Shown here in pieces: positions 1-10,053 of a stretch of 10,053 bases of DNA. The stretch's first letter is position 1, and each line of letters begins with the position of its first letter. The DNA is taken from assembly GCA_027070385.1 (NCBI GenBank), contig JALXDW010000507.1, forward strand, positions 1 through 10,053. The letters are read 5' to 3'. This DNA comes from Chromatiales bacterium (GTDB taxonomy: Bacteria > Pseudomonadota > Gammaproteobacteria > UBA6429 > Thiohalophilaceae). Below the pieces are notes generated by a model. The model was not told the DNA's origin. It worked only from the letters and a program-made list of their open reading frames with translations, and did no database searches. The position numbers and the translations under genes were made by a program.

Positions 1-858
1 AAGAACAGTTGTCTGGATTGCCATCAGGGAATCAAGGAAGTGCCGCACAAGAATGTTAAAGAAGTTGATTGCAGTACTGAATGTCATATGACGGAGCCAT
101 CAAGTGATACCAAATTTTCTCATGATGTTATTAAAGAGAACCTGCAGCAAAGTGTTCATAATAAATATGATAGTAAAGGTAAACTCAAGGAATATCCGGA
201 AGATTATCCGGGATGCAAAGACTGCCACGATCAACCACTGTATCGCCCTTTACATAAAGATATTAGCAGTAAAGAACGTGATGTGGCGCGCTGCAAGAGT
301 TGTCATGCAAGCGGTGATTTTGCAGAAGAACTATACAATCATATGACGACCCGGTTACATAAATTTCGTTCACCTAAGGAAAACATAAGTGTTTGTGCAA
401 AGTGTCATGGGGACAAGAAATTCAATCAACGCCATAAACTGGATGATGTTGTTAGTTCATATAAAGAAACCTTTCATGCCAAGTTAATTCAGCTTGGTTC
501 GGAAAAAGCCCCGGACTGTATTGATTGCCATGTAGTACGTGGTGAAAATGCACATTTAATTGAAGCAAAAAAAGTGAATACCTCAGCCACGCATGAAAGC
601 AATATTTCCAGAACCTGTCGAGGAGCAAGCTGTCATGATAAAGCATCCGAAAATATTGCCGGGTTTAAAACACATGTCACTTATGAACGAAGCAAATATC
701 CATTGCAATTTTATATGTTGACTTTTTTCCGAATTGTTTTAACCGTTGTGTTATATGCTTTTTTACTGATCGTGTTTATGGAGCTATTACGCCGATTATT
801 TCCTCATATTACCATTCCGGATATGTTAAGCCGGTTAAGAAAAGGTAAGGATAAATAA
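1..858 (+). CDS. Membrane-anchored multiheme c-type cytochrome, 5' end outside window
   Basis: The reading frame is open from base 1 and already holds a haem motif (CLDCH) before the first possible start (GTG at 40), so the gene begins upstream. The visible 285 residues carry five CXXCH motifs at residues 4, 72, 98, 132 and 173. There is also a CX3CH motif (CSTECH, residue 24) and a CX4CH motif (CRGASCH, residue 206), giving seven probable covalent haems. Many extra His residues could be distal ligands. One strongly hydrophobic helix lies at about 236-263, followed by a basic tail ending KGKDK. This fits a periplasmic haem domain with a C-terminal membrane anchor and a short cytoplasmic tail. 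The next gene, a b-type cytochrome, starts one base after the stop, so the two probably form a quinone-linked membrane complex passing electrons between the quinone pool and periplasmic cytochromes. The exact family is not recognised; the haem-protein call is firm and the partner assignment is inferred. Confidence 0.9.
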   Translation, partial: KNSCLDCHQGIKEVPHKNVKEVDCSTECHMTEPSSDTKFSHDVIKENLQQSVHNKYDSKGKLKEYPEDYPGCKDCHDQPLYRPLHKDISSKERDVARCKSCHASGDFAEELYNHMTTRLHKFRSPKENISVCAKCHGDKKFNQRHKLDDVVSSYKETFHAKLIQLGSEKAPDCIDCHVVRGENAHLIEAKKVNTSATHESNISRTCRGASCHDKASENIAGFKTHVTYERSKYPLQFYMLTFFRIVLTVVLYAFLLIVFMELLRRLFPHITIPDMLSRLRKGKDK

Positions 859-859
859 G

Positions 860-1651
860 ATGGAAAAACGTCCTGATATTCTTGTTAAAAATGGTGTGCG
901 CTATTTTCAGAAGTTTACCGTACATCAGCGTGTGCAATCTATTATACAGATTGCAAGTGTTATCGTGCTGGGTTTAACGGGCTTGCCTTTACGTTATGCA
1001 GAGTATGATTGGGCAAAAAGTTTGTACAGCTTTTTTGGTGGGCCGGAAGTCGCTCCAAATATTCATCGGGCTGCAGGAACGGTACTGATATCTGTTTTTA
1101 TTTACCATACGATTTACTGGCTTATTAAATATTACCAGAATCATATCAGAAAATTATGGCGACAAGGTGAGTTAAGTTTTAAATCTGCATTCAAGGAATT
1201 CTTAGGCATGACCATGATCATGGATAAAGAGGATTTTAAATCAGTCATTGATCATTTCAAATATATTTTCTTTATTAGTAACAAGCCAGCGCAGTATGGG
1301 CGCATCATGTGGAAGGACAAGTTTGAATATTATGCCCAATATTGGGGAATAACTGTGATTGGACTAGCAGGGATGGCTTTGTGGTGGCGTGATGAAGTCA
1401 GTCATTTTTTGCCGGGGATTGTTTTTAATGCAGCATATATTATGCATTCCTACGAAGCATTATTGGCCGTGCTATTTCTTATTTTTATCCATTGGTACCA
1501 TGAATATTATTCACCTGAAAAATTCCCGGTTCCAACCGGTTTTTTCAGTGGGTATATCTCTGAAAGTCAGATGATACATGAGCATTATGCACGTTATGTC
1601 GAGTTGATGATGGATGCCGGCCTGGAATCAGAAATTAAACCTCACCATTAG
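860..1651 (+). CDS. b-type cytochrome, four-helix integral membrane protein (cytochrome b561 / hydrogenase or formate dehydrogenase cytochrome b type)
   Basis: This 263-residue protein has four hydrophobic helices at about 25-45, 70-90, 157-177 and 187-212. Histidines lie in or beside them: H22, H69 and H83 at helices 1-2, and H196, H211 and H214 at helix 4. That pattern fits a dihaem b cytochrome of the kind found as membrane subunits of formate dehydrogenases and NiFe hydrogenases, which exchange electrons between quinones and a periplasmic partner. A hydrophilic segment of about 65 residues (92-156) separates helices 2 and 3. The ATG follows the previous stop by one base and is preceded by a purine-rich AAGG site, so translation is likely coupled to the upstream multiheme cytochrome. 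No dehydrogenase or hydrogenase subunit is present in the window; its partners appear to be the multiheme cytochromes on either side. Membrane cytochrome b is a confident call; direction of electron flow cannot be told from sequence. Confidence 0.85.
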   Translation: MEKRPDILVKNGVRYFQKFTVHQRVQSIIQIASVIVLGLTGLPLRYAEYDWAKSLYSFFGGPEVAPNIHRAAGTVLISVFIYHTIYWLIKYYQNHIRKLWRQGELSFKSAFKEFLGMTMIMDKEDFKSVIDHFKYIFFISNKPAQYGRIMWKDKFEYYAQYWGITVIGLAGMALWWRDEVSHFLPGIVFNAAYIMHSYEALLAVLFLIFIHWYHEYYSPEKFPVPTGFFSGYISESQMIHEHYARYVELMMDAGLESEIKPHH

Positions 1652-1665
1652 AGATAAGATTAAGC

Positions 1666-2571
1666 ATGAAATTGATTAAAGTCATTATATATAAGGTATA
1701 CGTTATTTTATTGATGATATTTGTTGTATGGACAGCTCAGTTTCTTTACCCGGTTATTTTTGGCTTTGACGAGGGGAATTTACTCAATCGTTCGCTGCAT
1801 TACCTTGATGGCAATGAGTCCGATGAAGTGAAAATGGTAAAAATAAAATCAAATATGGAAAATTCAAAAAAAACAACAGAGCTGGATCTGGGGTATAAAG
1901 TTATAAAGCAGCAATATATTGATAAGCACTTTCATCACATTGGTTTTGAAATACAGGATGATAAAACCAATGCTTGTGTGTATTGCCATGGTCAGGTTCC
2001 ACATGAAAAAGATCCGGAAAGTCGTTCGTTTTTAAACATGCATGCCTTTACTGTTGCCTGTGAAAGTTGCCATTCCATTGCTACCGAAGGAAAAAATAAT
2101 TGGGGGTTTGCATGGTATAGTATTAAAACGGGTAATATTGTTTCTAATCCAACGATGTTAGTTGAAGAAGATATATTCAGGGGGCCGTTCGGGGATAAGA
2201 ACAAAAAATATTATCCAACCGGTAATTATGGTGCAAAAATAGCACCTGGCTATCAGGTTAATGACGAATTCCGGTTATTAACAAATAGAGCTGACCTAGA
2301 GGCAGCAAAAGATTATATGCAGACTCGACATGAGCTGACTCAGACGCAAAGAAAAAAACGCAGGAAGGATCTGCATCGGGTTGTGAATAAAAAACCATTG
2401 GAATGTGATAACTGCCATGGAGATACCCATAATTATATTGGTTATGACAAACTGGGTTACCCACCTCGTCGGGTACGACAATTAAATGATACGGCAATCG
2501 TCGGTTTAATCAGCAAGTATGAACGTTTTTATTTTCCTAATTTTATGGAAGGCAGTGGCCGGAGAAAATAG
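1666..2571 (+). CDS. N-terminally anchored triheme c-type cytochrome
   Basis: The 301-residue product starts with a short basic stretch and a hydrophobic helix (about 5-30) with no clear cleavage site, so it is probably an uncleaved membrane anchor with the rest in the periplasm. Three CXXCH motifs are present: CVYCH (104), CESCH (132) and CDNCH (247). Possible distal ligands include H89-H91, H126, H222 and H237. The 110 residues between the second and third motifs have no haem site, giving much more polypeptide per haem than in its neighbours, so this stretch may form a docking or catalytic surface. The gene sits 14 nt after the b-cytochrome gene and its TAG stop shares a base with the next GTG start. 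It is probably a further electron-transfer subunit of the same membrane complex. I do not recognise a specific family; a small enzymatic role cannot be excluded. Confidence 0.85.
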   Translation: MKLIKVIIYKVYVILLMIFVVWTAQFLYPVIFGFDEGNLLNRSLHYLDGNESDEVKMVKIKSNMENSKKTTELDLGYKVIKQQYIDKHFHHIGFEIQDDKTNACVYCHGQVPHEKDPESRSFLNMHAFTVACESCHSIATEGKNNWGFAWYSIKTGNIVSNPTMLVEEDIFRGPFGDKNKKYYPTGNYGAKIAPGYQVNDEFRLLTNRADLEAAKDYMQTRHELTQTQRKKRRKDLHRVVNKKPLECDNCHGDTHNYIGYDKLGYPPRRVRQLNDTAIVGLISKYERFYFPNFMEGSGRRK

Positions 2572-3497
2572 TGCAATTACTGAATAGAAAAATAGCTGTA
2601 CTCTGTTTTTTTGCCGGTTGTTTATTGTATACGGCGATATTGAATGCAGCGATCCCCACAAAAAAAATAATACCACTTTATACCTTAACAGGGACAGCTG
2701 GTATGCACTTGTCGAAGCCTTCTGATATTAGCGTAAATAGTCGCTTTGTTTATGTAGTCGATGGTGATAATAATCGCATTGTTGTTTACAACAAGAAAGG
2801 CCAATATATAAAGCAATTTGGCCGGTTTGGTCATAAAAAAGGGGAATTAAATTACCCGGTTGGTATCGGTCTTGATAGTGAAGGTTATATTTATGTTGCT
2901 GACACAAGGAATCATCGCATACAGATTTTCGATGAAAATGGTGACTATGACAGAATGATTAAGGTGAATATTGCCGGTAACCCTGTCAGGCCGGTTGATG
3001 TTGTGGTTGCAGATGATAACAGTAAGATTTATGTCACAACCAAGTCGAATAAAATACTTGTTTATAAACAAAACGGGAAAAAAATCAGGGAAATCGGTAG
3101 AACAGGAACAGACAAAGGTGAATTTCGTTTTCCGGCAACAATAACAACTTTGTCACACGGAAGAATTGCAGCAATTGATATTTTAAATTTTCGTTTACAA
3201 ATATTCAGTGATAAAGGTAAGTACAGTTACCAGATAGGTAGCTTTGGTGTTCGTGCTGGACAGTTGATTCGTCCAAAAGGCGTTGCCGTCGCTCCAGGTG
3301 GTGATATTTATATTTCGGACAGTTATATGGATTTGATTCAGGTCTTTACCAATAAAGGCCGTTTTCTGCATGTACTTGGAAGCGAGGGGAAACCTTATAA
3401 AATGACAGCCCCAGCGGGTATTGCCATTGATCAACAGAAACATCTTTATGTGACAGAAGTTTTTGCCAATCGTGTCAGTGTTTTTCAGCTGGAATAG
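2571..3497 (+). CDS. Exported six-bladed NHL-repeat beta-propeller protein
   Basis: The 308-residue product begins with a signal sequence (basic MQLLNRK, then a hydrophobic run to about residue 27, probable cleavage after AILNAA). A Cys at 17 in FFAGC is a poor lipobox, so lipidation is possible but unlikely. Six NHL-type repeats follow at about 47-85, 94-131, 139-175, 185-223, 231-269 and 278-307. Each has the pattern P-x-x-[IV]-x-V, [IV]YV-[AS]D, N-R-[IV]-x-[VI][FY] and a closing G-x-[FY]. This fills a whole propeller. No haem motif or catalytic centre is visible, so it is most likely a scaffold or binding protein for the exported cytochromes. NHL proteins are often encoded beside multiheme cytochromes in bacteria that respire metals or use extracellular electron transfer. 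The GTG start overlaps the preceding stop by one base, with a GGAG site just upstream, which supports coupled translation. Confidence 0.88.
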   Translation: MQLLNRKIAVLCFFAGCLLYTAILNAAIPTKKIIPLYTLTGTAGMHLSKPSDISVNSRFVYVVDGDNNRIVVYNKKGQYIKQFGRFGHKKGELNYPVGIGLDSEGYIYVADTRNHRIQIFDENGDYDRMIKVNIAGNPVRPVDVVVADDNSKIYVTTKSNKILVYKQNGKKIREIGRTGTDKGEFRFPATITTLSHGRIAAIDILNFRLQIFSDKGKYSYQIGSFGVRAGQLIRPKGVAVAPGGDIYISDSYMDLIQVFTNKGRFLHVLGSEGKPYKMTAPAGIAIDQQKHLYVTEVFANRVSVFQLE

Positions 3498-3501
3498 GAA
3501 A

Positions 3502-5901
3502 ATGAAAAACGGAAATTATTATTTTATTTCAGTTATATTCATGTTTGTAGCAGCTACAAGTAATGTGGTATATGCCAATATTACAGCAACTTCTGATAGC
3601 AATGAATGCGCAACCTGTCATGTGATGTGGATCAGTGATTTTCAGGATAAAAGTGTTGAAACTCTGATTCCATATAACCCACAACCTGTCGAGTTATCCG
3701 GGAAACAAAATGGTGTCGCTAGTACTGAGCGAATGTGTTTCAGTTGCCATGATGGATATATACTGGAATCCCGTTATCGCTGGCGGGAAGGGCGACATAA
3801 TCATCCTGTTGGGCAGAAGGTTCCCAAAAAAATAAAGATACCAAAGAAAGACGGGAAAGAAACCTTTCCCTTGAATATGGATAAAAAAGTTTATTGTGGT
3901 ACTTGCCACTCAGCACATGGTGTTGATTGGGGACAGAACCGTTCCGCTATTTTTATGCGCGCGGTTAACGAAAGTTCCAATATGTGTCGTGCCTGCCATA
4001 AAGAAAGAGCAACCGGATCCCGGCACGGTAATCATCCTATTTTAAATCGTATCAAACGCTTACCTGAAAATTTAAAACAGGCAGGAGCAAAAATAGGGCC
4101 ACAGAATAAAGTTGTGTGTGAGTCTTGCCATCGACAACATGGCGCACCGGCTGATAAATTATTGGTGCTGGATAACAGTCAGTCATCCAGGTTGTGTGTT
4201 AGTTGTCATAAAGACAAGAAAAGCATGTCTAACACTAAGCATGATATGAATATCATGTCACCTGATTTGAAAAACAGTAAGAAACAAACAGCGGTTAAAA
4301 ATGGTTTATGCAGTGCTTGCCATGTTTCTCATGATGCTAAAGGACCCAAGCTGGCAAGTATTGCTGCAAAACAGGGAGCTGATCCACTCGAAGCGAACTG
4401 TGTGAATTGCCACAATGATAGTGGTGTTGCAAAAAAAGCAGCCATTGGTAGGCACAGTCATCCGATTAATGTGAATGTAAATAAATTAGGTATCAAGGTG
4501 ACCGACAAGCAATGGCAGAGTGATTCTGTATTGGTTGAACAGATTGGACAAATGGTATCATTGCCGTTATACGATAAAAAAGGTCATAGCGTAAAAGGGG
4601 GTACACAGGTTGCGTGTGGTACTTGTCATGACCCACATAATTGGTCAGTCAAGGAAAAACATCAGAATACTGAATCGGTATCCGCAGAACGTATACGGGC
4701 ATTACGCGGTAATGGCAATAACAGTTTTTTACGCATTGCTCAGGGAATGAATAGTGCTTTATGCACGAACTGCCACATTGATAAGCTGGCGATAAAGGCG
4801 ACCAAGCATAACCCCCGTAATGTTACGGGTGAAATGGCTGAAATGATGCACCCAAAACGTCAATCAGAAAGCAGTGAAGATTTAAACGATGGTTTATGTG
4901 GTACCTGCCATAAGGCACACAATGGCAAGAGTGTAAATATGTGGGCACGTGAGGTAAACCTTGAAAAAGGGAATGTTGTTATCGAACGCTTGTGTAACGA
5001 TTGCCACAATAAGGAAAGTGTTGCAAAAGGTAAATTAACCGGTACGCACAGTCATCCCCTGGGAATCACACTTCAGAAAATGAAAGGGCATAATAAACTT
5101 CCCTTGTTTAATAAAGAAGGGGAACGTACAAAAGATAAAAATGGACGGATAGATTGTGCAACTTGTCATAATGTACATCAGTGGGATCCACTGGATATTG
5201 AAACTACAGCCGGGGCGGTGAATGAAGTGGACGGTGATGCGACGAACAGTTTTTTACGAATTCCTTCAACAGCCACAAAGGAAATGTGTATTGAATGTCA
5301 TACGGACGAGCAGTATGTAGCGGGTACCGAGCATGATTTGAATATCTCTGCACCGGATGCAAAAAACAAATTTGGGCAGACAGTCAAGCAGTCCGGTGTC
5401 TGTGGTCAATGCCATGCAGTGCATAATGCCAGTACAAAAACAAAACTGTGGGCACGGAAGCTGGGGAAAGCCAATGATCCGATTGATCTCTATTGTCGAA
5501 GTTGTCATCAAAAGGGCGAAATAGCAGGATCTAAGGTGATTCCAGCTGAGCGGGGCACTCATCCTAAAGATGTGCTGGTTTGGTCGAGTGATATCCGGGA
5601 TAAGGCCGGTCGTCATCATCAGGGTAAAAAGTTTAATATTCCGGTATTTAATCGTTTAGCTAAACATGACAATGTCGGACAAATTACTTGTGCGAGTTGT
5701 CATAATCCACATAAATGGAACGGGCGTAAAAAGCAAAAAGGCCCGGCTAAAAAAACAGAAGGGAATGCAAATAACAGTTTTTTGAATGTTACTAATACCG
5801 AGAACTTTGTTTGTTCAGATTGTCATGGACTCGATGGATTATTTCGCTATAAATACTTCCATTCCCCTTCCTCAAGAAAAAAACATCGTTTGTATGAATA
5901 A
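3502..5901 (+). CDS. Exported 18-haem c-type cytochrome with doubled-CXXCH tetraheme repeats
   Basis: The ATG at 3502 is preferred because it gives a clean signal peptide (MKNGNYYF, hydrophobic core, cleavage after VVYA at residue 25), a GGAA site about 7 nt upstream and a 4-nt gap from the NHL gene. An in-frame TTG at 3463 would add 13 residues and spoil the leader. The 799-residue product has 18 CXXCH motifs, starting at residues 36, 79, 132, 162, 206, 232, 270, 300, 372, 421, 466, 498, 552, 596, 634, 665, 730 and 771. They fall into a four-motif cycle: one followed by HSHP or THP, one of the form CxTCHxxHxW, one preceded by NSFLRI, and one of the form GLCGTCHxAHN. This is the doubled-CXXCH, cytochrome c3-like class. 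No membrane anchor or lipobox is seen after the leader, so it is soluble in the periplasm or exported further. It is probably the terminal electron carrier or acceptor of the operon. The protein is basic and Lys-rich. Confidence 0.92.
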   Translation: MKNGNYYFISVIFMFVAATSNVVYANITATSDSNECATCHVMWISDFQDKSVETLIPYNPQPVELSGKQNGVASTERMCFSCHDGYILESRYRWREGRHNHPVGQKVPKKIKIPKKDGKETFPLNMDKKVYCGTCHSAHGVDWGQNRSAIFMRAVNESSNMCRACHKERATGSRHGNHPILNRIKRLPENLKQAGAKIGPQNKVVCESCHRQHGAPADKLLVLDNSQSSRLCVSCHKDKKSMSNTKHDMNIMSPDLKNSKKQTAVKNGLCSACHVSHDAKGPKLASIAAKQGADPLEANCVNCHNDSGVAKKAAIGRHSHPINVNVNKLGIKVTDKQWQSDSVLVEQIGQMVSLPLYDKKGHSVKGGTQVACGTCHDPHNWSVKEKHQNTESVSAERIRALRGNGNNSFLRIAQGMNSALCTNCHIDKLAIKATKHNPRNVTGEMAEMMHPKRQSESSEDLNDGLCGTCHKAHNGKSVNMWAREVNLEKGNVVIERLCNDCHNKESVAKGKLTGTHSHPLGITLQKMKGHNKLPLFNKEGERTKDKNGRIDCATCHNVHQWDPLDIETTAGAVNEVDGDATNSFLRIPSTATKEMCIECHTDEQYVAGTEHDLNISAPDAKNKFGQTVKQSGVCGQCHAVHNASTKTKLWARKLGKANDPIDLYCRSCHQKGEIAGSKVIPAERGTHPKDVLVWSSDIRDKAGRHHQGKKFNIPVFNRLAKHDNVGQITCASCHNPHKWNGRKKQKGPAKKTEGNANNSFLNVTNTENFVCSDCHGLDGLFRYKYFHSPSSRKKHRLYE
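4399..5826 (+). repeat. Tandem tetraheme-unit repeats within the 18-haem cytochrome gene
   Basis: Three consecutive units start at 4399, 4993 and 5494; the last lacks its fourth haem and ends the protein. Equivalent haem motifs recur every 165-198 residues, for example 372, 552 and 730, or 421, 596 and 771. Shared landmarks are HSHP, LPL[FY] before the second motif, CHxxHxW, NSFLRI, [KE]H[DN] and LWAR. A diverged unit precedes them at 3985-4398 and half a unit at 3736-3984. At DNA level the 11-mer AACAGTTTTTT occurs at 4720, 5245 and 5773, spaced 525 and 528 nt. This indicates growth by duplication of a tetraheme ancestor. Confidence 0.8.
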
Positions 5902-6267: not shown

Positions 6268-6690
6268 TTATTTTGAAAAATTAAGAATAGCTTGTGTTGG
6301 ATAGGCACGAATACATTCAGCTTCGCTGGTTTTAACCAGAGCACGTTGAAAAGTGGCATCGGTCTGTAGCCATTCCTCTCTCAAGGCATCACTGATTCCG
6401 GCTTCTTTTATGGAATCAGACAGTAGTTGTGCACGTAATTCAAATAATTCATCGCTGATTAACATATGTTGGTGTGCAGATTTGGGCGATTTGCCTGAAT
6501 AACGTTTGGGCCCCCCCATTAACTGGATCATAAAATCTGTCTGCTGGTTCTCAAGCAATTCCTGCGGTTTATCAGTAAAATATTTGCTTAACCAGGGGTG
6601 GGCATAAGCTTTATCATAAAAAATCTTGTGTACTTTAATAAAAGTGGATTTGCCACCAAGGCGCTCATAAAGTGTTTTATCAATAGCCAT
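6268..6690 (-). CDS. Truncated haemoglobin (2/2 globin family)
   Basis: The 140-residue product has the truncated-globin signature: LYERLGG at 7-13, a Phe-Tyr pair (F24-Y25) where the B-helix Tyr that contacts bound ligand is expected, HPWLSKYF at 31-38, then QLMGGPKRYSG at 56-66 and SAHQHMLIS at 71-79. The proximal haem ligand is most likely H73, with H75 as the alternative. The glycine pairs and length are typical of the family. Subgroup I or II is not settled; the Trp common at helix G in group II is not evident. Such proteins bind O2 or NO in the cytoplasm and often serve in NO detoxification or oxygen sensing. The gene is divergent from the beta-barrel gene across 128 bases and convergent with the cytochrome operon. 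I found no convincing promoter or NO-regulator site in the divergent spacer. The C-terminal extension (about 118-140) with Cys126 is not conserved in families I recall. Confidence 0.88.
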   Translation of the reverse strand: MAIDKTLYERLGGKSTFIKVHKIFYDKAYAHPWLSKYFTDKPQELLENQQTDFMIQLMGGPKRYSGKSPKSAHQHMLISDELFELRAQLLSDSIKEAGISDALREEWLQTDATFQRALVKTSEAECIRAYPTQAILNFSK

Positions 6691-6818: not shown

Positions 6819-7457
6819 ATGAAATCCATGCCATTGTTTTATATTAGGAAAACTGAATATTTCGGCCGTACAGGGGCGTTGTTATTCGGGATGATGGGGC
6901 TGTTACTACTGACAAGTCATGCAGGTTTGGCGGCACCGAGGGTGACCCAGGCAAGTGCCTGGTCGCTGACAGTTTTTGCTGCAAACAAGACCAATGATGC
7001 CCTGGGGGATACAGTATTATTCAATGCAGATTTTCCACAGAAGCAGCACTTTGTTTCTGTGGCCATCGCTAAAAAACTGGATTCATATCGGCAAGTTGAC
7101 TTTGAACTGGAAGGTCAGGTAGCCAAACATTATGCGGCAGAGAAATACAAGGAATACACGGTCGCTGTTTTGGCGCGTTGGGCCAAACTCAGCTGGGATG
7201 ATGTGGTAAACATGCGTTTTGCTGTGGGTGAAGGCCTGTCTTACACAACGGTTATTTCCCAACTTGAAGCAGAAGGGCATGAAGATACTAATCGGTTATT
7301 GAATTTTCTGATATTCGAAACCAGCTTTGCAATTCCTGAAAATAACGACTGGGAGGTCGTGCTTAGAATTCATCATCGTTCAGGTGTATTTGGTTTATTT
7401 AATGGTGTGCATGGTGCATCGAATGCATGGGCACTGGGGCTGCGCTATCATTTTTAA
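6819..7457 (+). CDS. Outer-membrane beta-barrel protein, PagL (lipid A deacylase)-like
   Basis: The 212-residue product has an N-terminal export signal: basic residues up to R17, a hydrophobic core GALLFGMMGLLLL, and probable cleavage after AGLAA at residue 39. The mature part of about 173 residues alternates polar and hydrophobic residues in strand-like segments and ends LGLRYHF, the C-terminal Phe typical of barrels inserted by the BAM machinery. The segment RIHHRSGVFG (184-193) resembles the His-x-Ser active site of PagL, the lipid A 3-O-deacylase (H126/S128/E140 in Pseudomonas aeruginosa); here the pair would be H186 and S188. No Glu or Asp follows S188, so the usual catalytic acid is missing, and a non-enzymatic relative is possible. 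ATG codons at 6819 and 6828 are both possible starts, and the ribosome-binding site (GAGAATGG) is weak. Barrel is likely; enzymatic role is uncertain. Confidence 0.7.
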   Translation: MKSMPLFYIRKTEYFGRTGALLFGMMGLLLLTSHAGLAAPRVTQASAWSLTVFAANKTNDALGDTVLFNADFPQKQHFVSVAIAKKLDSYRQVDFELEGQVAKHYAAEKYKEYTVAVLARWAKLSWDDVVNMRFAVGEGLSYTTVISQLEAEGHEDTNRLLNFLIFETSFAIPENNDWEVVLRIHHRSGVFGLFNGVHGASNAWALGLRYHF

Positions 7458-7511: not shown

Positions 7512-10053
7512 TTATTTTTCGAACTTTTGCATTTGCTCTTGGATACGAGAAGCGGCTACAGGTTTACTGTATAAATACCCTTGAATATAACGACAGTCAT
7601 TAAGTAACAAAAAGTTTTTTTGTTCCAGGGTTTCAACACCTTCGGCAATAACCATTAACCCCATATTTTTTGCAAGCGCAATAACAGATTTTGAGATCAT
7701 AATATCATCTTCATCATTTGGTAAATCACGAATAAAAGATTGATCTATTTTAAGTTTGTTAATTGGTAGGCGTTTAAGCTGGGATAGTGATGAATAGCCT
7801 GTCCCAAAGTCATCGATTGCAAGACTGATACCGAGGCTCTTAATCCGGTTTAAATTTTGAATGGCCAGTGTCGAATCCTGCATAATCTGGCTTTCAGTAA
7901 TTTCCAGTTCAAGCCATTCCGGGCAGCAGGCTGTTTCAGTCATCAAGGCCTGTAAGTTATCAATAAAGTCTTTATCTTTTAATTGAACCATCGATAAATT
8001 AAGTGCAAGAATACCCGGGTTAAATCCCTGTTGGTACCAATCGCTGAATTGTGTCATTGCGGTTTTCATGACCCATAGATCCAGGGGGATAATCAATCCT
8101 GTTTCATAGGCAAAATTCAGAAATTTAGCAGGTGAAATTAATCCCATATCCGGGTGTTGCCAACGAACAAGGCCTTCCATACCAACATACCGGCCGGTTT
8201 GTGCATCGACTTGAGGTTGATAGTAAACAACAAATTCTTCACGTTTTAAGGCATTGCGAAAACTGGCTTCCATAGCGATACGTTCAAATGCCTTCTCAGT
8301 CATCGCTTCGGTATAAAACTGATAGGTATTTCTACCATCATCTTTAGCATGGTACATTGCCGCGTCAGCATTTTTCAGAAGTTCCTCGGCATTGTTACCA
8401 TCATCAGGGTAAAGTGCAATACCAACACTAAAGGTAACATAAAAATGATTTCCTGATATTTCAACAGTTGAGTGCATTACTTGCAGCAAATTTTGTGTAA
8501 CACTGACAACAATATCATTATTGGTAACCTGATCCAGGACAATAGTGAATTCATCGCCTCCCAAGCGTGCCAAAGTATCAGTTTGCCGAATTTTACTTTT
8601 TAAACGCTGCGCAACTTCCTTTAATAACTCATCACCTACCTTGTGCCCCATCGAATCATTAATGCCTTTAAAATGATCAAGATCCAGGAATAATACAGCT
8701 ATTTTTGTTTTACTTCGTTGTGCTTGTTTAATGGCCTGATTCAATCTGTCATCAAACAGAAACCGGTTGGGTAGATCCGTTAAGGTGTCATGGTGTGCAT
8801 GGTAATGAAGAATTTCTTTTTGTGTTTCAAGTTCTTCCTGAACTTTCTGGCGTTTCTTGATTTCAAGAGACAGCGCAATGGCGTTGACAACGGAACTGGA
8901 AAAATCCTCCTCATCGGCAGTCCATTCGCGTAGCTCACCGGTTTTTTCATGGCGAATAAGGCCGATGGGTTTATTGTCCTGCAAAATAGGTAAATCAAGT
9001 ATTGAGTAAATATTAAGTGGATAGAAATAAGTATTATTAAATTCACAGCTACGTTGGTCTTCACGCGCATTACTTATTGCAAGAATTTCACCATTAGCAA
9101 TCGCATTAAAATAATTCGGGTAATCTTTCTTTAATAAAATATCCCCACTTTCATGTTTGTCTTTATCTTGCAAATACAGATCAACACAATTCAGTGTCGA
9201 TTGATCATTATTAAACAGCCAGATACTGACACGTTCCACATGCAATGCTTTGGCCGACAATTCGGTTGCCTTATGAATAGTGAAGTTCTCATCCAGATAG
9301 TCAACTTTGGACCACTCCAACAGGGCCTGCTGGTAATCTATTCTTCTGTCAAATACACGCTGTATTTTTATGATATTTTCATTTACGACACGAGCCATCA
9401 CTGCTATTTCATCATTCCCCTTGACCTGAATGGGTTGTGCTGTCTGTTGTTGTTGGTTCAGGTATTTAAAGAAATTTAACAAGCCGTTCTGGAAAGAAGT
9501 CACAACGGATGATATGGAGCGCGCAATAACAGAACCAAACAATATCCCGAGCATGATGGTGACCGCACTGACTATCATTAATGTCAGTTCTATATTGTTA
9601 CTTTTATGGGACATATGTTTAACAGATTTCTTGGCAGACTGAATAGCATTATTAATAATATTCTGGCCTAATTTCTGCATTTCAGGTAAGACTTCTACAA
9701 CCAGTTGTTTGTTTAGCGTAACCCAGGATTGCATTGCTTTTTCATATTTCAGAGCAGAATTTCTGAATTTCTCAAGTTTTTCAAATTCAAAAGGTTGATC
9801 TGACATTGCCTTCAGTCGTTTCCATTCACTCATCATAAAAGAAAAACTTTTATTAAATGTCTGAAAAACAGCGTCATCAGGACTTAAACGGTATTTTTTT
9901 TCATCCAATCGTGTCACATAAGTATACTGCCAGATATTGGAACCATTATTTATTTTTTCAATGGTTGTTTGGTTTAAACTTTTTTTAATTTCAACACGTT
10001 TGGATTCAACATATTCCTGTATTTGCAGAGTTATATATTCCCCCTCCTTTTCC
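7512..10053 (-). CDS. Membrane sensor with GAF, GGDEF and EAL domains (cyclic di-GMP turnover), 5' end outside window
   Basis: The frame is open to the window edge, 45 codons upstream of the GTG at 9917, so the true start and probably a first membrane helix are missing. Numbering from that GTG: a helical, presumably periplasmic sensor region to about 105, a transmembrane helix at 109-133, a HAMP-like linker to about 185 (GNDEIAVMARVVNEN), a GAF domain at about 205-350, a GGDEF domain at about 370-535 and an EAL domain at about 545-795. The cyclase motif RLGGDEF (451-457) is intact, and an RxxD inhibitory site (RQTD, 444-447) lies five residues before GGDEF. The EAL motif reads EGL (581-583). 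The other phosphodiesterase residues are present: N640, E672, D702-D703, K723 and E759. Both synthesis and breakdown of cyclic di-GMP are possible. It probably senses an extracellular or cytoplasmic cue for attachment or motility. It is convergent with the barrel gene; no terminator is visible between them. Confidence 0.93.
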   Translation of the reverse strand, partial: EKEGEYITLQIQEYVESKRVEIKKSLNQTTIEKINNGSNIWQYTYVTRLDEKKYRLSPDDAVFQTFNKSFSFMMSEWKRLKAMSDQPFEFEKLEKFRNSALKYEKAMQSWVTLNKQLVVEVLPEMQKLGQNIINNAIQSAKKSVKHMSHKSNNIELTLMIVSAVTIMLGILFGSVIARSISSVVTSFQNGLLNFFKYLNQQQQTAQPIQVKGNDEIAVMARVVNENIIKIQRVFDRRIDYQQALLEWSKVDYLDENFTIHKATELSAKALHVERVSIWLFNNDQSTLNCVDLYLQDKDKHESGDILLKKDYPNYFNAIANGEILAISNAREDQRSCEFNNTYFYPLNIYSILDLPILQDNKPIGLIRHEKTGELREWTADEEDFSSSVVNAIALSLEIKKRQKVQEELETQKEILHYHAHHDTLTDLPNRFLFDDRLNQAIKQAQRSKTKIAVLFLDLDHFKGINDSMGHKVGDELLKEVAQRLKSKIRQTDTLARLGGDEFTIVLDQVTNNDIVVSVTQNLLQVMHSTVEISGNHFYVTFSVGIALYPDDGNNAEELLKNADAAMYHAKDDGRNTYQFYTEAMTEKAFERIAMEASFRNALKREEFVVYYQPQVDAQTGRYVGMEGLVRWQHPDMGLISPAKFLNFAYETGLIIPLDLWVMKTAMTQFSDWYQQGFNPGILALNLSMVQLKDKDFIDNLQALMTETACCPEWLELEITESQIMQDSTLAIQNLNRIKSLGISLAIDDFGTGYSSLSQLKRLPINKLKIDQSFIRDLPNDEDDIMISKSVIALAKNMGLMVIAEGVETLEQKNFLLLNDCRYIQGYLYSKPVAASRIQEQMQKFEK

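Follow-up and report, generated by a model that had tools for sequence, protein, structure and literature searches.

The 10,053-nucleotide stretch analysed here (the window) is an entire contig, C507, of the draft genome of a Chromatiales bacterium (G000; 2.46 Mb in 530 contigs, 83% complete). Its positions 1-5901 are taken up by five plus-strand open reading frames (ORFs), genes A to E, which probably form that half of an operon for extracellular electron transfer which serves the inner membrane and the periplasm, with uptake of electrons favoured over export. Gene A (1..858, open at the contig start) encodes a type-I octahaem c-type cytochrome with a C-terminal transmembrane (TM) anchor, B (860..1651) a cytochrome b of the FdnI/HydC kind, predicted to be dihaem and quinone-reactive, and C (1666..2571) a trihaem c-type cytochrome with an N-terminal anchor, the third member of the triad A-B-C. 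They are followed by D (2571..3497, GTG start), an exported NHL beta-propeller (PF01436, E-value 2.2e-29), and E (3502..5901, ATG start), an exported 18-haem c-type cytochrome and predicted periplasmic wire.

The other half of the operon was observed in relatives. A more distant gammaproteobacterium (G338) carries 11 genes in a row on the same strand of a single contig, H4-N2-POR-N1-J11-H8-A-B-C-D-E, with a type-I triad; H4 is a tetrahaem, J11 an undecahaem and H8 an octahaem protein, N1 and N2 are NHL lipoproteins and POR is a presumed beta-barrel. This operon totals 50 CXXCH motifs, in addition to the CX3CH and CX4CH of A. In a sister species of the window organism (L022), the contig starts with a 6-haem fragment of H8 running into A, and a separate contig of the same genome carries H4-N2-POR-N1-J11, ending inside J11. 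The 11-CXXCH protein lies two genes from POR (about 630-720 aa) in relatives; POR had no Pfam match and is presumed to be a barrel from its gene place and by analogy.

Contiguous J11-H8-triad-D-E was found in 8 of the 14 J11 contexts fetched. With a paralogous, type-II triad it occurs in L121 (B2 split over two frames), L122, L123, L124, L126, L142 and L140, and L146 has the same J11-H8-type-II triad arrangement up to its contig end within D. L143 and L145 have the parts around a type-I triad, with interruptions or in a different order; J11 is cut in L120, and L147 and L148 have no triad within the stretch. L125, a weak J11 match, has N1-J11 about 8 kb from H4-E-D-C2-B2. As gene kinds, H4, N1 and N2 are all present in L121, L122, L123 (H4 cut), L124, L126, L142 and L156, and L140 (Thiohalobacter sp. 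IOR34, contig of 2,961,281 nt) has N1 and N2, with no H4 beside N2.

A synteny test, open to the outcome that the five genes do not co-occur elsewhere, found the block conserved in relatives. Named genomes were scanned with the B alignment, and of the 520 loci obtained, the 80 most similar in B were kept. A close group of 45 (L022-L064, L066 and L088) was retained, the other 35 being distant B relatives that were left out; eight loci were rechecked by tblastn, five of them within the 45 (L032, L043, L052, L055 and L056). According to record titles, the close loci are mostly from Gammaproteobacteria, and also from Gallionellaceae, Nitrosomonadales, Sulfurimicrobium and two labelled Polarisedimenticolaceae. 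The order A-B-C is kept in 44 loci (A is cut in L026, L046 and L053, and C in L057), and the remaining one, L088, is cut inside B. Within the stretches examined, E was found in 21 of the 45 and D stood directly 5′ of it in 15 of these 21 (exceptions: L035, L036, L046, L052, L055 and L056).

The 24 type-I triad loci without E in these stretches, many of them also without a conduit gene, could suggest a self-contained route that starts at the inner membrane and ends at a soluble partner in the periplasm, the outer membrane taking no part. J11 and POR are indeed absent from the window contig, and no conduit gene was found in the 83% complete G000. We nevertheless consider such a route improbable in view of the contiguous G338 operon with the same triad type, its counterpart on two contigs in the sister species and the co-occurrence of E and J11 across the class. 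The separate inner-membrane-to-periplasm route of the original prediction was not borne out: relatives carry the block as the latter half of a longer operon, whose first half resembles the Uet and MHCR clusters compared below.

This co-occurrence was scored in a class sample of 369 genomes. E (cut <= 1e-60) was present in 10, J11 (<= 1e-60) in 12 and both in 9, the only E genome without J11 being the incomplete G000. With J11 below 1e-100, seven of 10 J11 genomes carried E, and so did all 8 genomes with a type-I B (< 1e-90). Similarly, 14 of the 40 genomes of the order had E. J11 at <= 1e-30 was also present in 14, of which 11 had E; the stricter cut of < 1e-100 left 9 J11 genomes, 8 of them E-bearing. 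Type-I B occurred in 8, accompanied by E in 7 and by J11 in 5. Fisher p values, which ignore shared ancestry here and below, were 7e-15 or 8e-11 for E/J11 and 6e-15 for E/B in the class, and 4e-5 or 3e-4 and 1e-3, respectively, in the order. B, J11 and E all went unmatched in the 100% complete sister genome G002, so these genes are accessory. Genome sets for type-II B were picked after the E-values had been seen and exclude G126, G224 and G327 (short B-like frames); they were not used for conclusions.

In the window, A and B are separated by 1 nt, B and C by 14 nt and D and E by 4 nt, and C and D overlap by 1 nt, which bears out the compact five-gene block originally proposed. CXXCH motifs number 5 in A, 3 in C and 18 in E, with none in B or D. 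Chance origin is excluded, as 1000 shuffles of each protein gave means of 0.026 (A), 0.003 (C) and 0.096 (E). Together with one CX3CH and one CX4CH, both in A, the 26 CXXCH make 28 haem motifs, in agreement with the at least 28 c-type haems first proposed. The anchors of A and C are hydropathy readings. A, B and C matched Pfam only under cut-offs, and the only NCBIfam cut-off passed among the five proteins was that of the doubled-CXXCH domain in E.

Gene A had been taken for an anchored 7-haem cytochrome. It shows seven motifs because the contig begins past the first one: the intact homologue of the sister species (L022:607-1671, 354 aa) carries 6 CXXCH, one CX3CH and one CX4CH. All eight motifs, the CX3CH and CX4CH included, are invariant in 42 aligned sequences (the window and 41 type-I homologues), as are nine further His. 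Judged by its motifs, intact A is thus an octahaem protein.

The predicted model of B best matched FdnI, and its best NCBIfam match was formate dehydrogenase gamma (1.8e-7, under the cut-off). A-B-C is best read as a quinone-linked inner-membrane module of Cbc-like kind, with predicted quinone reactivity, as the original prediction of a multihaem plus cytochrome b module of Cbc type had suggested. B identity to the window is 83% in L022 and 68% in G338. In a B tree built from 49 sequences (16 of type I, 13 of type II, 8 of type III and 12 fused; types I and II sampled), the three triad types formed one branch each with 100% bootstrap, and the window, L022 and G338 formed a subclade at 100/100; deep joins involve long branches and were not relied on. 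Of the 15 loci in which D directly precedes E, L022 and L044 carry a type-I triad next to the pair, L045 and L050 a type-III one and the other eleven a type-II one.

Variants of the module were also noted. L065 has a single ORF fusing B and C. L045 (Ca. Thiodiazotropha) has triads of all three types one after another, flanked by J11-H8 on one side and D-E on the other, with an E of 20 haems and 67 CXXCH across the recognised genes. A signal peptidase I gene directly precedes the type-I triad in L041, L044 (PF10502, 5.3e-29), L045, L047, L048, L050, L051, L054, L061 and L064. B-like domains are fused to 11-23-haem cytochromes in L068-L101, from Bacteroidota, Acidobacteriota and others, and 12 of the 35 distant loci have a protein of about 500 aa with 6 CXXCH and 3 predicted TM stretches near the B-like gene.

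E, a doubled-CXXCH cytochrome (Pfam 2.4e-32), is the short form of a family with mostly 18 or 24 haems; it was aligned with 37 homologues, picked for both lengths from 120 listed among 1144 matches. Its profile weakly matched cytochrome c nitrite reductases in PDB, and C weakly matched the octahaem tetrathionate reductase family (26.5 bits against a cut-off of 375), as might be expected if one cytochrome were the terminal enzyme for a soluble substrate such as tetrathionate, nitrite or sulfur. We regard a respiratory reductase as very unlikely: these matches are far under cut-off or confined to short haem-motif stretches, and the invariant His of A suffice for bis-His ligation at 8/8 sites.

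A simple model of the proposed electron-transfer operon would thus have B, A and C assemble into a quinone oxidoreductase that functions as CbcBA/CbcL do in Geobacter. D may act as a scaffold and E would carry electrons through the periplasm, which D, E and H8 together would bridge, while J11, POR, H4, N1 and N2 would pass electrons across the outer membrane. Such a chain of about fifty haems would wire the respiratory membrane to the cell exterior, probably to minerals or other solids.

By analogy, uptake for autotrophic growth is the favoured direction, because the related clusters Uet and MHCR are tied to cathode-fed autotrophs (PMC5371394 for Tenderia transcripts, PMC12575090, PMC13293256, PMC9751133) and RuBisCO is common in the order, with matches in 33 of 40 genomes, 32 above cut-off. 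The same conduit might work in reverse and export quinol-pool electrons to minerals, electrodes or partner cells, as Geobacter CbcL/CbcBA do. Cbc-type quinol oxidoreductases were characterised in the export direction (PMC9129911, PMC12307469), and CbcBA was proposed to run in reverse in Seep-SRB2 (PMC10553843), so the direction is not fixed by type. As Uet and MHCR are the nearest described clusters and the order is largely RuBisCO-bearing, we hold export to be a real but clearly lesser possibility.

Some observations temper this reading. RuBisCO fails to separate E-bearing (13/14) from E-lacking (20/26) genomes, and that of G000 is only a fragment, below cut-off. In two of the nine class genomes with both E and J11 (G250 and G350), J11 aligned over only about 300 of 571 residues. 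Finally, the order-level Fisher p for B/J11 was 0.008 or 0.10, depending on the cut.

More tentatively, and with rather less confidence than in the operon as such, one could see a single operon that covers the whole way between cell surface and quinone pool, with a swappable cassette as its quinone module. Triads I-III would fill one and the same position, alone or in tandem, and could tune the chain to donors or acceptors that differ in potential; Geobacter, with ImcH, CbcL and CbcBA, offers a parallel. The wire would consist of single-chain OmcE-like modules of mostly two lengths, six haems apart, perhaps set by periplasm width. The complete named genome of Thiohalobacter sp. IOR34 carries the operon, which makes the system testable. 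Many uncultured Gammaproteobacteria with the operon have names suggesting sulfur or iron cycling. The route of Uet/MHCR-imported electrons to the respiratory chain was left open in the accessible parts of PMC5371394 and PMC9751133, and the operon is a concrete candidate for that missing link, in one unit.

The rest of the window holds three further genes. A bacterial-like globin (6268-6690, minus strand; PF01152, 2.7e-14) is convergent with E, and L022 has a 140-aa ORF at the matching position. A 212-aa, probably exported protein (6819-7457, plus strand) had no Pfam match; by eye, we take it to resemble outer-membrane PagL-type deacylases. A GAF-GGDEF-EAL cyclic-di-GMP protein (7512-10052, minus strand) is open at the contig end.

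Among known systems, Cbc complexes (CbcBA and CbcL) share with the triad a dihaem cytochrome b and a periplasm-facing multihaem c-type partner, B being a predicted dihaem cytochrome b of the FdnI/HydC fold; the comparison with Cbc is by description. CbcA has seven haems, whereas its counterpart A has eight, and C is an extra member. In CbcL, a nine-haem domain is fused to the b domain in one chain (PMC9129911), in contrast to the eight haems of A and the separate A and B genes. Fused b/c forms with other haem counts occur in other phyla. Also unlike Cbc, the triad is linked in relatives to an outer-membrane conduit.

The conduit half resembles Uet of Tenderiales, in which an undecahaem cytochrome, a beta-barrel and NHL propellers stand in one cluster (PMC10734462; UetJ also in PMC13386937, the cluster name in PMC12575090). 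It similarly resembles MHCR of 'Ca. Thiomicrorhabdus electrophagus', with cytochromes of up to 11 haems, a beta-barrel and NHL/6-blade propellers (PMC9751133; MHCR also in PMC13293256). The first operon half of the relatives holds the same gene kinds as these clusters, compared by kind; the tetrahaem UetA and the two NHL proteins of Uet have their counterparts, in this sense, in H4, N1 and N2. As far as the accessible descriptions go, Uet also includes a peptidyl-prolyl isomerase, UetB, and the trihaems UetDEG, whereas the full operons here lack them in the run: from H4 to E, no extra called ORF of >=70 aa was found in seven full operons (L121-L124, L126, L142 and L144+L156; the rest of the genomes was unsearched), and C/C2 is their only trihaem. 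Moreover, these operons extend past the Uet-like half with H8-A-B-C-D-E, including the 18/24-haem cytochrome, in contrast to the <=11 haems described for MHCR cytochromes. The Uet form itself seems to be represented by L147 (G386), where there are two trihaems but no triad in the vicinity.

PCC3 of iron oxidisers has very large cytochromes of 21-27 haems thought to span the periplasm (PMC10734462), as is proposed for E. It differs in that the accessible part of its description names periplasmic and extracellular cytochromes, a porin and a single inner-membrane protein, but neither a triad nor an NHL protein. On another contig of the window genome (G000:C356, L114), giant cytochromes with 25 and 21 CXXCH (584-2596 and 2674-4266, both minus strand) lie beside a TM-protein end; they look PCC3-type and may give the organism a second route through the outer membrane. 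BLAST with these cytochromes returned no E-family protein among the best eight targets listed. No description of the present gene combination was found in the searchable literature, most subscription papers and preprints being outside its coverage. Thus the kind of conduit is known, and what appears to be new is the union of a Uet/MHCR-like conduit with a cytochrome of mostly 18 or 24 haems and a Cbc-like module for which three triad clades are in use.
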